A stretch of 19,870 bases of DNA from contig JAUPUA010000011.1 of assembly GCA_030917805.1 (NCBI GenBank), positions 1-19,870 of the forward strand, in the 5' to 3' direction. The number at the start of each line of letters is the position of its first letter. The stretch's first letter is position 1. This document shows positions 5,175-13,333 of the stretch, piece by piece. Made by a program: the position numbers and the translations under genes. The stretch is from Patescibacteria group bacterium. GTDB lineage: Bacteria; Patescibacteriota; Saccharimonadia; Saccharimonadales; HK-STAS-PATE-42. The notes below the pieces were generated by a model. That model made no database searches, was not told where the DNA came from, and worked only from the letters and a program-made list of their open reading frames with translations.

Positions 5175-5771
5175 TTAGTTAGGCAAGAATGTATTCAGGT
5201 CAACAGAGTCCTGTCTAAACTCACTTGGCAATTCCCAATTACTCATGTCTAACCCACTTAGTTCAATTGTAGTCCAAAAACCTAGATACCTATCTTCAGG
5301 ATCTTTCTCAACTTGCCCAAATGCGACCAGCTTACTTCTTGCCTCTTCGACACTTAAACCTAACTTTTCCGTAGGCTTAGGGGTCTTTTTAGGGTCTAAG
5401 AAACCACAACTCTGTAAAATCATTCTATCCCAGCCAAAAGTACGCACAAAGATATCAAAAGAGTACTGTGAGGCTAAACCTACAAATATCTCTGGGAAAT
5501 CATACTTTTGAGTGAGCGCACCAAGGCCTCTCACTAGCTTTCCACCAACTCCATTACCTCTAACGTTTGGGGCAACCCTAAGTAGTCCCGCCTCTACTCT
5601 TCTTACGCCCGAATCTTGAACATTGAAGACATTATGTATAAAGTAGCAAGAAAGTGGCAATAATAAATCTACCGTCGGCTTCCCGTCGTCATAAGCAGAT
5701 GAGCGCCAATAGGCAGATATATTCGCACTGGATACTCCATCAACATAACGATTTCCTATTTGATCAGACAT
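5175..5771 (-). CDS. Cassette 4: GNAT-type N-acetyltransferase
   Basis: Predicted acetyl-CoA-dependent acetyltransferase of unknown substrate. The 198-residue product has a GNAT core whose motif A is clear: the beta-4 strand AGLLRVAP, then VRGNGVGGKL (about residues 70-79, matching R/Q-x-x-G-x-G/A) that would bind the CoA pyrophosphate. About 100 further C-terminal residues, including a stretch rich in Lys and Pro (DPKKTPKPTEK), are not typical of small GNATs. An upstream ATG at 5867 would add 32 residues, but that start would run back through the promoter and the 44-bp repeat, so ATG at 5771 is chosen. It lies 9 bases after a -10 box with no Shine-Dalgarno. It is the last gene of the array. 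Confidence 0.7.
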   Translation of the reverse strand: MSDQIGNRYVDGVSSANISAYWRSSAYDDGKPTVDLLLPLSCYFIHNVFNVQDSGVRRVEAGLLRVAPNVRGNGVGGKLVRGLGALTQKYDFPEIFVGLASQYSFDIFVRTFGWDRMILQSCGFLDPKKTPKPTEKLGLSVEEARSKLVAFGQVEKDPEDRYLGFWTTIELSGLDMSNWELPSEFRQDSVDLNTFLPN

Positions 5772-5780
5772 ATAATATAA

Positions 5781-5809
5781 GTTATACCATATAACGGTAC
5801 CAAAGTCTA
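5781..5809 (-). promoter_or_regulatory. Cassette 4 promoter with overlapping inverted repeats
   Basis: On the minus strand the repeat ends in TAGACT (5804-5809) as -35, followed by 17 bases and TATAAC (5781-5786) preceded by TGG. Inverted repeats overlap this: GTTATA-TGG-TATAAC (5781-5795), and TACC...GGTA arms (5785-5788 and 5796-5799) with a 7-base loop. The ATG follows 9 bases after the -10. Confidence 0.55.
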
Positions 5810-5846
5810 TAGTATCGGACCGTAACCTTGGAAATCTGGGACTCTT
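5803..5846 (-). repeat. 44-bp cassette-boundary repeat, copy D (between cassettes 3 and 4)
   Basis: This is the most divergent of the three copies: 37 of 44 identities with copy B and 36 of 44 with copy C, with no gaps. The central TTACGGTCCG is invariant. It carries AT instead of CC at positions 32-33, so the CCA match to tRNA-Asp is lost here. It lies 26 bases beyond the stop of the cassette 3 gene. Confidence 0.8.
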
Positions 5847-5872
5847 TTGCAAAGCAACCAAAAGCACACTTC

Positions 5873-6541
5873 CTACGCCGGTCTATTCAGCTCAGTTATA
5901 GATGCCTCTCTATCTTCGGTATCCGTGTCGAACCTATGGAACATTGGTCCTTTTGCACTTTCAAGAGCTATGACTACGCTATCCCCCTCACTAACCCTAC
6001 CAGTGAACACATTATTAGGATCTATAAGTTCAGCGAACGTTTCGCCACCAAGAGCTAGTCTATGAAGAGGCTTCTCCCAAACAGATCTTACGGCAAGAGT
6101 TCCAAAGCCAGGCTTACTTCGTCCTTCGACATCAATCAAACCTTTCGCAGCATGACCAGGTAACCCGAAAAGGAGATCACCCTCACCCCTATCAGTGCTG
6201 TGAACGTTGAGATTCAGTACTTTATCTACAGCTTCAACGCCGTCAGTATGAAGGTCACCCACTCCATGCGGCTTAACTTTAGTTTTAGTTGGTCCAGCTT
6301 TGAACTCTGCGCCCTGTTCTAAAAGCGCAAGTCTTACATGCTCAACCAAGTCATCATGGCTGCCTATTTCAAGTAGCCTCTTAGTATCTTCCCTAATGAT
6401 AATACCTGGAAGTTCTCCCAGCAATGAGGCTACTAGATAACGATCCATAGTGGACCTATCTTGTGCCTCAGGAATCTGCTGTGGTTGAAACTGAACTCTT
6501 GTCAGTCTTTGTCCAGGTTTCATTTTTGCTTTAGCTGTCAT
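5873..6541 (-). CDS. Cassette 3: probable 2-oxoglutarate/Fe(II)-dependent oxygenase
   Basis: The 222-residue protein shows the facial-triad layout of 2OG-Fe(II) dioxygenases. H98-x-D100 sits in GDLHTDG, followed by a strand pattern VLNLNV and GEGDLLFG. A distal H202 sits in GPMFHRF, with R211 nine residues later as the likely 2-oxoglutarate carboxylate ligand. GDSVVIAL just before the distal His fits the usual strand there. The N-terminal 90 residues, with DRYLVASLLGELPG, are unrecognised. The substrate is unknown and the assignment rests on motif spacing only. The start ATG at 6541 is followed in frame by MKPG seven codons on. There is no Shine-Dalgarno; AAAAAACAAAA precedes the ATG. The stop lies 26 bases before repeat copy D. 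Confidence 0.6.
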   Translation of the reverse strand: MTAKAKMKPGQRLTRVQFQPQQIPEAQDRSTMDRYLVASLLGELPGIIIREDTKRLLEIGSHDDLVEHVRLALLEQGAEFKAGPTKTKVKPHGVGDLHTDGVEAVDKVLNLNVHSTDRGEGDLLFGLPGHAAKGLIDVEGRSKPGFGTLAVRSVWEKPLHRLALGGETFAELIDPNNVFTGRVSEGDSVVIALESAKGPMFHRFDTDTEDREASITELNRPA

Positions 6542-6563
6542 TTTTGTTTTTTATAATAAAGAA

Positions 6564-6600
6564 TACCTCATATAATAACATATGAGGTAGAATAAATCAA
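6564..6600 (-). promoter_or_regulatory. Cassette 3 promoter inside a 10-bp inverted repeat
   Basis: On the minus strand, TTGATT (6595-6600, the edge of repeat copy C) is followed by 17 bases and TATTAT (6572-6577). The -10 lies in and beside the loop of a perfect inverted repeat: TACCTCATAT (6580-6589) and ATATGAGGTA (6564-6573), with a 6-base loop. This arm is longer than in the other cassettes but keeps TACC...GGTA at the base. The leader would be about 25 bases. Confidence 0.55.
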
Positions 6601-6637
6601 TAGTGGCGGACCGTAACTTTGGAAGTCTGGAACTATT
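6594..6637 (-). repeat. 44-bp cassette-boundary repeat, copy C (between cassettes 2 and 3)
   Basis: It has 40 of 44 identities with copy B, without gaps. It begins immediately after the TAA stop of the cassette 2 gene. Differences at positions 39 and 42 change the terminal TAGACT to TTGATT, a better -35 match. The outer hexamers AATAGT and ACTATT are inverted copies of each other. Confidence 0.85.
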
Positions 6638-6976
6638 TTAAAGCCCCACAGACCCATGGCGAACAGCATCTGTATTTATAGGTGCGTCGATTCCTGATCG
6701 TTGCGATTTTGCAGGACCGTTGGTCGCAAAACAACTTAGCCTAGCATGGTCCGCATCTATCTCTCTCAACTTAACCCATACCTCATCAGATGGTACATAG
6801 TTTAAATTACTTGCTGCTTGACCTAGCGATGCACGGGCAGCTTCAATTTGTCCAGAGTACTGGATACGAGCCATTACCGTAGCAGACGAAAGATCTGCTA
6901 AAAGCCGGGACCTTTCGGCGTGCGCAAATGCTCTCCGTTCTCTTGGATTCGGCGAATCGTAACTAAAATTCCTCAT
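6638..6976 (-). CDS. Cassette 2: small soluble protein, unknown function
   Basis: I do not recognise this 112-residue protein. It is hydrophilic, without a signal peptide or membrane segment, and its middle (about residues 15-60) is rich in Ala, Arg, Ser and Leu, suggesting helices. The C-terminal 25 residues are Ser/Asn/Gly-rich and probably flexible. A hand count of 60 bases near its 3' end gives about 52% G+C, against about 38% in a sample of the ABC-F gene, which hints at a foreign origin. The gene is bounded tightly: ATG 9 bases after its -10 and TAA directly against repeat copy C. The good fit to the interval is the main support that it is real. Confidence 0.6.
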   Translation of the reverse strand: MRNFSYDSPNPRERRAFAHAERSRLLADLSSATVMARIQYSGQIEAARASLGQAASNLNYVPSDEVWVKLREIDADHARLSCFATNGPAKSQRSGIDAPINTDAVRHGSVGL

Positions 6977-6985
6977 AATAATATC

Positions 6986-7015
6986 ATTATACCACAGGAG
7001 TGGTATATAAGTCTA
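6986..7015 (-). promoter_or_regulatory. Cassette 2 promoter with 8-bp inverted repeat
   Basis: On the minus strand the repeat edge TAGACT (7010-7015) is followed by 18 bases and TATAAT (6986-6991), with extended -10 TGG. The spacer holds a perfect inverted repeat TATACCAC-TCCT-GTGGTATA (6988-7007) whose second arm enters the -10. The ATG at 6976 lies 9 bases after the -10 and has no Shine-Dalgarno. Confidence 0.6.
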
Positions 7016-7052
7016 TAGTGGCGGACCGTAACATTAGAAGTCTGGAACTATT
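7009..7052 (-). repeat. 44-bp cassette-boundary repeat, copy B (between cassettes 1 and 2)
   Basis: Its last 23 bases match the tRNA-Asp 3' end and flank at 18 positions, including 15 consecutive bases (CCGCCACTATAGACT). Its first half (AATAGTTCCAGACTTC) is shared with copies C and D but not with the tRNA, apart from CCAG. The TAG stop of the cassette 1 gene lies inside the repeat. Confidence 0.87.
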
Positions 7053-7398
7053 TTACTTCATTTGGTTCAGGAAACATTTCATCCATAGCTACAGAATAAG
7101 CACCCACGACACCCCAAAGAGGAGACTCCAGCAAACCATAATGAAGAGCACCACCTATATTAGCCTGAATGTCAGTCATGCCCAAATCCACCATGTCTCT
7201 TAGGTGAATGGCCACAGGAGTAGTAGCCTGCCCAGTCTTCATATGTCTACTAGCCCTGTAAGCTGAATCTATATCGGCAACCGTGAAGAACTGATAGTTC
7301 TCCATACTAAAGCCCAACACAACATCGGTAACACCAATAAATCTTTTTTTTGAAAAAATGGTATTGGCAACCTTCTCTAAATCAAAACCTTTTCTCAT
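7048..7398 (-). CDS. Cassette 1: small soluble protein, unknown function
   Basis: I do not recognise the 116-residue product. It begins MRKGFDLEKV, is soluble, and has a Gly/Ala-rich C-terminal third (IGGALHYGLL, WGVVGAYSVA) that may pack as helices. It ends with an acidic tail (DEMFPEPNEVK). No metal-binding or catalytic motif is evident. The frame stays open upstream to 7500, but that extension crosses tRNA-Asp and the promoter, so ATG at 7398 is taken as the start. It lies 7 bases after a -10 box and has no Shine-Dalgarno. The stop codon TAG is part of repeat copy B. Confidence 0.62.
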   Translation of the reverse strand: MRKGFDLEKVANTIFSKKRFIGVTDVVLGFSMENYQFFTVADIDSAYRASRHMKTGQATTPVAIHLRDMVDLGMTDIQANIGGALHYGLLESPLWGVVGAYSVAMDEMFPEPNEVK

Positions 7399-7405
7399 GA
7401 AACAA

Positions 7406-7435
7406 ATAATACCACAAAAGTGGCATACGAGTCTA
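7406..7435 (-). promoter_or_regulatory. Cassette 1 promoter with inverted repeat
   Basis: On the minus strand TAGACT (7430-7435), just past the tRNA CCA, is followed by 18 bases and TATTAT (7406-7411) preceded by TGG. An inverted repeat ATGCCAC-TTTT-GTGGTAT (7409-7426, one G-T pair) overlaps it. It is closely similar to the cassette 2 element. The ATG follows 7 bases after the -10. Confidence 0.55.
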
Positions 7436-7472
7436 TAGTGGCGGGCCCGACCAGGTTCGAACTGGCGATCTC
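7429..7472 (-). repeat. tRNA-side attachment-like site (A), overlapping the tRNA-Asp 3' half
   Basis: This stretch aligns without gaps to the 44-bp repeats. Identity to copy B is strongest over 7430-7444 (15 of 15), which covers the end of the acceptor stem, the encoded CCA and seven flanking bases. Upstream identity is scattered, with CCAG of the T stem shared. It may be the original insertion site. Confidence 0.6.
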
Positions 7473-7514
7473 CTCCGTGACAGGGAGGCATGTTAACCAC
7501 TACACCACGAGCCC
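7439..7514 (-). tRNA. tRNA-Asp (anticodon GTC), CCA encoded
   Basis: On the minus strand it folds as a 76-base cloverleaf. Acceptor arm GGGCTCG pairs with CGGGCCC (two G-T pairs). The anticodon stem CCTCC/GGAGG carries loop CTGTCAC with anticodon GTC. T arm GCCAG-TTCGAAC-CTGGT follows. Discriminator G and CCA are encoded at 7439-7442. It sits directly upstream of the cassette array, whose repeats copy its 3' end. Confidence 0.95.
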
Positions 7515-12352: not shown

Positions 12353-13333
12353 ATGCCTTCAACGTCGCAAAATAAATCCCCCTACTTGAGCGAACTTATA
12401 GTAGATTTTCTAGAATATTTAGAGATAGAACAAAACCGCTCACAAAACACTATCCGAAATTATCACCTCTATTTAAACCGACTAGTTGAGTTCTGGGGAG
12501 ACGAGCCAATTAACAAGCTAACCGCAGATACGGTTAGAAAATATAGACTCTGGCTAAACAGACTTGCGGGAAAAGATGGTGAAAACCTTGGTGTCTCAAC
12601 TAGAAATTACCATCTTATTGCCCTAAGACATATGCTCAAATACTGCGCAAAAGTCGATATCGAGGCAATCCCTCCGGCCAAAATAGAACTTGCCAACTCA
12701 ACCCGAAAAGAAGTCACATTCTTAAACCAAGAGGAACTAAAGAGATTATTCGAACAACCTAATACCTCAGAAATCGGAGGCCTAAGAGATTTAGCAATTC
12801 TAGAATTACTCTACTCAACAGGTTTGCGTGTATCCGAACTTACAAAACTTAATATAGACCATGTTAACCTAAAACTTGGAGAGTTCACTGTCCGCGGAAA
12901 GAGACAGAAAGACCGCCCCGTTTTTATAACTGACTCAGCCAAAGAGATCCTAGAACAGTACTTAGAAAAGAGAACCGATAACAGCCCTCCACTCTTTATT
13001 AGATTAGCAGGCACTAAACGTGTAGATACGTCTGGAGATCTGTTGAGGCTAACCCCCCGCTCAGTCCAGAGAATCATCCAAAAGTATGCCCTAGCCGCCG
13101 GAATAACAAAGCATGTCTCACCGCACACCTTAAGACACAGCTTCGCCACTAATCTACTCATGAACGGAGCAGATTTAAGAAGCGTCCAAAGTCTGCTTGG
13201 CCACAGTAACATCGCCACCACCCAGGTCTACACCCACATAACAGACCCCCACCTTAAATCCGTCCACAAAAAATTCCACTCCGGTAACCAAAAAGAAACG
13301 GGGGGGTTAAAACCTTACGATCCAAAAACTTAA
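12353..13333 (+). CDS. xerD: XerC/XerD-family tyrosine recombinase
   Basis: Site-specific recombinase, most likely the chromosomal dimer-resolution enzyme acting at dif. The 326-residue protein has a SAM-like N-terminal DNA-binding domain (about 10-105, FLEYLEIEQNRSQNTIRNY) and a catalytic domain. All catalytic residues are present: R159 (TGLRVSEL), K183 (RGKRQKDR), H258 and R261 (HTLRHSF), H284 (LGHSN) and nucleophile Y293 (QVYTH). XerC versus XerD cannot be settled by eye. A single-Xer system is possible in small genomes. It is also the only recombinase near the tRNA-Asp cassette array, so trans action there is conceivable but unproven. Its last 27 bases overlap the convergent prepilin peptidase gene. 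Confidence 0.92.
   Translation: MPSTSQNKSPYLSELIVDFLEYLEIEQNRSQNTIRNYHLYLNRLVEFWGDEPINKLTADTVRKYRLWLNRLAGKDGENLGVSTRNYHLIALRHMLKYCAKVDIEAIPPAKIELANSTRKEVTFLNQEELKRLFEQPNTSEIGGLRDLAILELLYSTGLRVSELTKLNIDHVNLKLGEFTVRGKRQKDRPVFITDSAKEILEQYLEKRTDNSPPLFIRLAGTKRVDTSGDLLRLTPRSVQRIIQKYALAAGITKHVSPHTLRHSFATNLLMNGADLRSVQSLLGHSNIATTQVYTHITDPHLKSVHKKFHSGNQKETGGLKPYDPKT

Follow-up and report, generated by a model that had tools for sequence, protein, structure and literature searches.

How does a row of small genes, each closed by a copy of the same repeat, come to stand behind a tRNA gene in a bacterium with so little genome to spare? Patescibacteria account for much of bacterial diversity, their genomes are very small, and their means of gene acquisition are poorly known. 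The question is raised here by a 19,870-nt stretch of Saccharimonadales DNA (hereafter the window), which is the entire contig C16 of its assembly, G000. On the minus strand of the window, three units of 420, 415 and 791 bp stand behind tRNA-Asp(GTC), each ending in a repeat copy, and after them comes a final open reading frame (ORF) without one. We conclude that the region is in all probability a mobile gene cassette array docked on the 3′ end of tRNA-Asp. On our reading it resembles integrons in its working, but it does not qualify as an integron, an integrase-bearing island or a dif module, and additive tRNA islands are the nearest precedent.

The 44-bp repeats at 7009-7052, 6594-6637 and 5803-5846, first picked out in the initial annotation, were reproduced exactly on re-alignment (40, 37 and 36 of 44 identities pairwise, ungapped), and the unit lengths given there were borne out. 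The runner-up match to the 7009 copy on either strand of the window reaches 26/44 at 7429, where it overlaps the end of tRNA-Asp (7439..7514, minus strand; ARAGORN and alignment), the attI-like anchor of the array. The repeat pattern, with up to three mismatches, occurs at no place beyond these three in the 612-kb, 66%-complete assembly. The longest exact run shared between the tRNA with its flank and the repeats is 15 nt (CCGCCACTATAGACT) for the 7009 copy and 10 nt for the other two. The 3′ third of the repeat had been described as a copy of the tRNA-Asp end and flank; the 15-nt identity agrees with this, but only 7-9 nt inside the tRNA are common and the site proper is 36 nt long. The last 9 nt of tRNA-Asp, GGCCCGCCA (7439-7447), are common to the site consensus.

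All features of the array lie on the minus strand. Site A (7019..7054, position weight matrix (PWM) score 52.2) closes cassette 1 (7019..7438), which consists of a promoter-like start, one ORF of 116 aa (7048..7398) and the site, the ORF ending at the TAG within the AAAATAG of site A. Site B (6604..6639, score 55.0) closes cassette 2 (6604..7018), whose ORF of 112 aa (6638..6976) belongs to no Pfam family and has a stop codon that overlaps the site by 2 nt. Site C (5813..5848, score 31.0), the most distal and most diverged, closes cassette 3 (5813..6603) with an ORF of 222 aa (5873..6541). Beyond it lies an ORF of 199 aa (5175..5774) with weak, below-cut-off GNAT similarity. A PWM scan detected no site at the 3′ end of this ORF, so the fourth unit may be either the tail of the array or its flank. 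The picture of four one-gene units needs correction: the fourth lacks a closing site, and other genomes hold toxin-antitoxin pairs and longer cassettes.

Comparison between species defines the site. Its consensus, AAAATAGTTCCAnAnYTSnnnnGCYACGGCCCGCCA, is 36 nt long and has the CCA of tRNA-Asp as its 3′ end, and the tRNA shares only its last 7-9 nt. A BLAST search with one repeat against 392 genomes of the order gave 20 matches with E ≤ 0.001 outside the window; 18 lay inside the first 46 query bases, most stopping at base 38. Across 91 aligned sites, conservation runs from the first A and stops exactly at CCA, with blocks at positions 1-14 and 23-36 and a looser middle. Since conservation between species halts at CCA, the remaining 3′ bases of the 44-mer (CTATAGACTT) are peculiar to this genome and lie outside the site. 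A weight matrix built from the BLAST matches found 67 sites in 34 regions and, in reversed sequences, 0 above threshold. The matrix, trained on the first 67 sites, was used with a threshold of 18, or 17 for three regions of the transfer-messenger RNA (tmRNA) lineages; array-free loci, sampled as 3-kb slices in 72 strand-wise scans, scored no higher than -5.0.

With up to three mismatches, the site occurs in 58/392 genomes of the order, 37/156 genera and 14 families, and the reversed control gave 0 in each genome listed. A looser pattern reached 88/392 genomes, but its reversed control exceeded 50 and it was not used for prevalence. Among 361 genomes across the phylum, seven carry the site (control 0), two of which (G527 and G488) lie outside the class. 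The regions analysed below are part of these matches and comprise 129 sites in 72 regions from 58 genomes, including three pairs of near-identical copies; the sites of G012, G239, G335 and G338, among others, lie outside this set. Neither site pattern had an exact match in IMG/VR, and plasmid sequences gave no match to the site. The left half-site is retained from one family to the next and beyond the class, whereas the tail tracks the RNA gene. This supports the initial suggestion that the 5′ half of the repeat is cassette-borne.

Strand and position of the sites are equally regular. In 72/72 regions the sites share a single strand, and 50 of the 51 regions with tRNA-Asp have it upstream on that strand. 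All three copies in G000 also lie behind tRNA-Asp, a distribution that does not fit an intergenic element scattered over the genome, the pattern that had been named as fatal to the cassette reading. The 21 regions without tRNA-Asp comprise three from G527 and G488, 13 in which the contig is cut less than 4 kb upstream of the first site, four others and one (L068) with the array behind tRNA-Ser(GCT), whose end TCCGCCA resembles the site end.

The tail of the site changes with the RNA gene. In G527 and G488 the common left half is joined to a tail that is mostly ..GCTCCACCA, like tmRNA. A tmRNA gene ending in AGCTCCACCA lies upstream on the same strand in G527, about 10 kb before the first well-scoring site, and in G488 a tmRNA gene lies 2.3 kb before a site. 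The tRNA-Asp of G224 has a compensated acceptor stem (GCGCCCG..CGGGCGC) and ends in GGGCGCGCCA, and its site correspondingly ends in GGCGCGCCA; no other of the 35 tRNA-Asp genes compared varies in this way. In G000 itself the sites read GGTCCG where the tRNA reads GGCCCG, and therefore the exchange point probably lies to the right of that base. Contig C3 of G488 (L178) carries a tmRNA-like 3′-end fragment 47 nt behind tRNA-Leu(TAA) and a site 0.9 kb further on. We considered tRNA-Leu as a second platform in this genome and dropped it, as the GCTCCACCA tail belongs to the tmRNA-like fragment behind the tRNA-Leu gene.

Gene content behind the anchor turns over. Had related genomes carried the same genes in the same order, the initial annotation would have been in difficulty; instead, both content and order vary between them, and some cassettes recur at other positions. 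G179 and G240, from different genera, share a 695-bp MazE-like/PIN cassette that is 96% identical (BLAST, 96.0% over 704 bp) and lies directly behind tRNA-Asp in G179 and second in G240, against 67% nucleotide identity in xer. The surroundings of tRNA-Asp are 87.8% identical over 115 nt, which counts against a contig swapped between bins. The cassette alignment starts at GCCCGCCA and stops one base beyond CCA, so that exactly one cassette was transferred. A second, near-exact transfer of a single cassette links G275 (first place) and G142 (second place), at 94.5% over 652 bp, with xer, on the same G275 contig, at 74%. We did not count as transfer the pairs G142/G179:C9 (99.8%), G142/G179:C13 (99.6%) and G226/G275:C65 (99.98%), whose flanks are equally identical; near-identical contigs in bins of different genera fit one strain, or mixed bins and cross-binning.

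Scores within arrays suggest an order of arrival. Among the 20 arrays whose far end lies away from the end of a contig or region, the first site outscores the last in 15 (Wilcoxon p = 0.011); among all 24 arrays the number is also 15 (p = 0.022). The test covered part of the regions. The gradient fits a model in which cassettes enter at the tRNA end and older, distal sites decay, but is no proof of it.

Together these comparisons suggest how the array could work. A cassette would be a gene or small operon that begins with its own promoter and finishes with a 36-nt recombination site. A circular or linear copy would recombine through the last bases of this site (within GCCCGCCA, or GCTCCACCA in tmRNA lineages) with the identical end of the RNA gene. 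The RNA gene would stay intact, the newcomer would become the first cassette and older ones would be pushed behind it. We infer insertion at the tRNA end, excision, circular forms and the enzyme from sequence comparison.

Several observations weigh against this model. First, the strong cases of transfer number two, and one of them involves G275, a mixed bin with four Xer copies; in the G275/G142 pair, furthermore, the middle of the closing site differs and G142 has 7 extra bases after the core at the left edge. Most shared cassettes are about 65-84% identical at the DNA level against an xer background of 62-76% in that set; they could be old or partly vertical and prove little alone. No excision, circle or empty/filled strain pair was seen, and 9/24 arrays show no score gradient. 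Second, anchoring has exceptions. In L253 tRNA-Asp lies the wrong way round, and L048, L051, L244 and L246 have at least 8 kb upstream of the first site without a matching RNA gene. Third, the 91 sites show no conservation to the right of CCA, which is unusual for a tyrosine recombinase site, and the tRNA homology is so short (7-9 nt) that the crossover cannot be placed firmly. As a separate observation, the L051 array (G031 contig C11), away from tRNA-Asp, carries cassette genes that by eye resemble hisG and hisD.

The candidate enzyme encoded in the window is an Xer-type tyrosine recombinase (12353..13333, plus strand), the sole PF00589 protein found in G000. Its best models are XerC, XerD and XerA, and only the XerA_Arch cut-off was passed. 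Among 44 site-bearing genomes, exactly one PF00589 gene was found in 34, none in 2 and 2-4 in 8, taking a two-piece match in G022 as one gene; the lone genes are Xer-type by neighbourhood where checked. In that G022 gene (G022:C8:69945-71741; L070, L101), the Xer core falls into two parts of a single 768-aa open frame, which resembles the effect of an intein or some other insertion in frame. We favour the housekeeping Xer of the host, acting in trans, because it is the sole tyrosine recombinase found in most site-bearing genomes tested, and regard it as the leading candidate while stopping just short of calling it probable. Its closeness to the array is less telling. Where a region includes xer (38 of 72), the distance from this gene to the nearest site is 3.1-8.7 kb, but the xer-ndk-tRNA-Arg-surA-tRNA-Asp neighbourhood is also present in the site-free genomes G096, G036, G032 and G092. 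The closeness is therefore ancestral and no proof of the enzyme. A scan of genome contigs with the SurA-like neighbour gave two distant matches only, and xer and array lie on separate contigs in G527.

Alternatively, the units could be minimal satellites, tRNA islands that depend on a helper and are integrated by transient tyrosine integrases of phages or other elements targeting tRNA-Asp or tmRNA. This differs from the Xer proposal in the enzyme only. A classical mark of tyrosine integrases, in the accessible text of one source, is that the element enters a tRNA or tmRNA gene at its 3′ end and the gene is regenerated (PMC4383910). The tmRNA-like fragment 47 nt behind tRNA-Leu in G488 is what conventional islands leave, and the 8/44 site-bearing genomes with more than one PF00589 gene could hold such helpers. 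Part of this surplus has another likely source. The four copies examined in G275 and G276 each adjoin tRNA-Arg(CCT), as a normal xer does, which makes mixed bins likely. Eight extra-integrase loci (about 3.5 kb each, six from site-bearing genomes; the extra copies in G062 and G168 lie outside the sample) contained no tRNA gene and no site. A tblastn search with the window Xer against the first 34 regions found the xer locus only, although divergent integrases could escape it. The lack of an exact site match in IMG/VR also argues against phage-borne helpers, and a left half that is nearly invariant in 14 families is easier to reconcile with one constant enzyme than with a variety of phage integrases. 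We consider transient helpers unlikely, if the most serious competitor to host Xer.

Homologous recombination or natural transformation could instead shuffle the genes behind tRNA-Asp, with the repeats serving as homology. The differing site middle between the 94.5% identical cassettes of G275 and G142 suggests exchange inside sites. However, homology at the left edge amounts to just 8 nt, too short for ordinary RecA-type exchange, and the fixed orientation with one site per unit points to site-specific recombination. We judge this explanation improbable and return to site-specific capture of cassettes.

The nearest likeness to such capture is found in additive flexible genomic islands (Alteromonas fGI1, Methylophilaceae fGI-2). 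As here, a conserved tRNA is targeted by successive cassettes, with tRNA-end repeats and with variable number and content, according to the accessible parts of their descriptions (PMC4119200, PMC10872708). Successive tRNA cassettes with tRNA-end repeats are thus common to both, the tRNA part being 7-9 nt only in our arrays. In additive islands, by the same partial sources, the repeat is the tRNA end itself (the last 20 nt in one case, 52 nt elsewhere), whereas here 7-9 nt of tRNA are joined to a 27-nt cassette-borne half-site. The half-site persists from family to family, and beyond the class with a different tail, and none is named for additive islands in the accessible text of those papers (PMC4119200, PMC10872708). 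The initial claim of a distinct arrangement must be trimmed accordingly: tRNA-anchored cassette arrays have precedent in these islands, and what sets the present ones apart is the half-site, the small units and the lack of an integrase in most genomes tested.

With integrons, the arrays share tandem cassettes in a single orientation, a site at the 3′ end, a fixed platform and a cargo of toxin-antitoxin genes and small enzymes. These features would suit a classical integron, with attC sites that fold and an integrase that escaped detection. Integrons differ, however, in IntI and the folded attC, neither of which was found here, and in the platform, which is here a tRNA or tmRNA end. The G000 recombinase scored 142.8 against a cut-off of 265 on TIGR02249, a model run on the window protein only. 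The window sites fold no better than shuffles (z = 0.51, -0.13 and 0.93), and the 91 sites have a 4-bp complementarity (5-8 with 23-26) that is paired in 91% of cells but shows no covariation. Integron cassettes are generally promoterless, as described in the accessible part of one source (PMC11551772), and the cassettes here have promoter-like starts. A classical integron is very unlikely on this evidence.

Islander and tycheposon islands, which carry an integrase, likewise enter a tRNA or tmRNA gene at its 3′ end and leave the gene intact, and the RNA 3′-end fragment expected on their far side is present here, limited to the last 7-9 nt. Islander accepts tandem arrays only if each member has its own integrase, and counts four tandems of at least three among 3919 islands, in the available portion of the paper (PMC4383910). 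Tycheposons measure 4-200 kb in the part of the source at hand (PMC10872708). The present units, in contrast, have a median of 789 bp, and no integrase of their own turned up in the first 34 regions searched. The dif modules of Acinetobacter (pdif) are, as far as the accessible text goes, small mobile modules without a recombinase, for which host XerC/XerD is proposed and which carry toxin-antitoxin genes, as do our cassettes (PMC6449649). Sites of these modules are dif-like, and a module described there is flanked by sites written XerC/D and XerD/C, in the same partial source (PMC6449649). Our arrays instead have direct repeats anchored on a tRNA gene, lying on one strand throughout, and no such pair of flanks.

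A static, vertically inherited cluster with diverging intergenic repeats would account for the conserved gene order around tRNA-Asp, the many unique cassette ORFs and the shared cassettes about as diverged as xer, but it is barely credible given genes that differ by species, shared cassettes that shift position, and 96% identity with edges at the sites over a 67% background.

Another genome of the same genus, G001, holds a comparable array behind tRNA-Arg(GCG) (L013:118-3422). Its two repeats, identical and 125 nt long, fold well (z = -3.97 for 87 nt) and finish with the tail of tRNA-Arg plus GATT; behind the second stands a promoter dyad that nearly matches the one in window cassette 1. GGTTCCA stands in register, but the repeat scores -26 on the Asp matrix and was rejected as the same site.

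Literature searches, including some on these bacteria or the candidate phyla radiation, yielded no description of such arrays, though they reached few subscription papers or preprints. As far as our searches reach, the following is new: a cassette-borne half-site shared across families and outside the class, small units, no integrase in most genomes tested, a switch between tRNA and tmRNA tails, and cassette-exact transfer.

The cassettes are compact. Unit length ranges from 308 to 14,756 bp with the median given above (83 units), and undetected old sites may lengthen some. The last ORF, read in array direction, stops between 17 nt inside and 1 nt before the site in 43/85 cases, and 18 use the TAG of AAAATAG; these counts come from a simple longest-ORF caller, and the site's own stops terminate any frame that enters it. 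The motif TTGACW-N15-19-TAnnnT occurs in the first 75 nt of 35/178 cassette starts and in 7/864 random windows, which are not gene starts. In the window, promoter-like sequences stand at the start of cassette 1 (7406..7435, TAGACT-18-TATTAT), cassette 2 (6986..7015, TAGACT-18-TATAAT) and cassette 3 (6572..6600, TTGATT-17-TATTAT) and distal to site C (5774..5803, TTGGTA-18-TATATT), all on the minus strand. Such matches are present at 4/4 starts, but 8 in the stretch against 5.0 (standard deviation 2.7) in shuffles are not striking. A palindrome TAYYA-N4-7-TRRTA near the -35/-10 elements, exemplified at 6986-7015, occurs at 17/178 cassette starts and in 13/864 random windows and is perhaps a shared operator. 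In L155 (G050), about 165 nt at the start of cassettes 1 and 2 are 96% identical, a duplicated cassette start.

Most cassette ORFs occur once, and the commonest recurring families are toxin-antitoxin pairs. Ten hand-picked cassette proteins were checked against Pfam, and nine have a match at E ≤ 0.001, with the hydrolase and the transposase under the curated cut-off. The kinds represented are PIN toxins, a MazE-type antitoxin, a YafQ/ParE-type toxin, NUDIX, cupin, alpha/beta hydrolase, PP2C and transposase. Separately, L067 (G142) and L238 (G179:C9), otherwise 99.8% identical, differ by an rve-type transposase element of about 1.4 kb that lies between tRNA-Asp and cassette 1 in one only.

The four window ORFs have no Pfam match above cut-off and no match in a defence-system library. 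The cassette 3 protein has 10 relatives besides itself (65-84% identity), in which H98xD100 and H160 are invariant, a motif that we take to be linked to 2-oxoglutarate oxygenases. Its structural model (predicted local distance difference test, pLDDT, 68) has a weak fold match to these enzymes (best E 0.004, template modelling score 0.34). The distal ORF has 2 relatives, and a search with the cassette 1 protein, which requires shared 5-residue words, returned only itself.

We speculate that these arrays belong to a gene-capture system, possibly phylum-wide, in which a housekeeping Xer doubles as an integron-type integrase and tRNA-Asp or tmRNA serves as the platform. Promoter-bearing cassettes with a common 27-nt half-site (AATAGTTCCAnAnnT being the left half of the site) would be re-addressed by swapping a tail of 7-9 nt, and together they would form an accessory gene pool. 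We put this forward tentatively, as quite possible rather than probable. If it is true, the one-sided site, unconserved past CCA, would mean that sites are recognised in a new way. Should Xer be the enzyme, a cell could run a cassette system without a dedicated integrase. The shared site is a searchable handle on the accessory gene pool of these bacteria, a possible insertion point for genetic tools and a case on which ideas about an origin of integrons from Xer can be tried.

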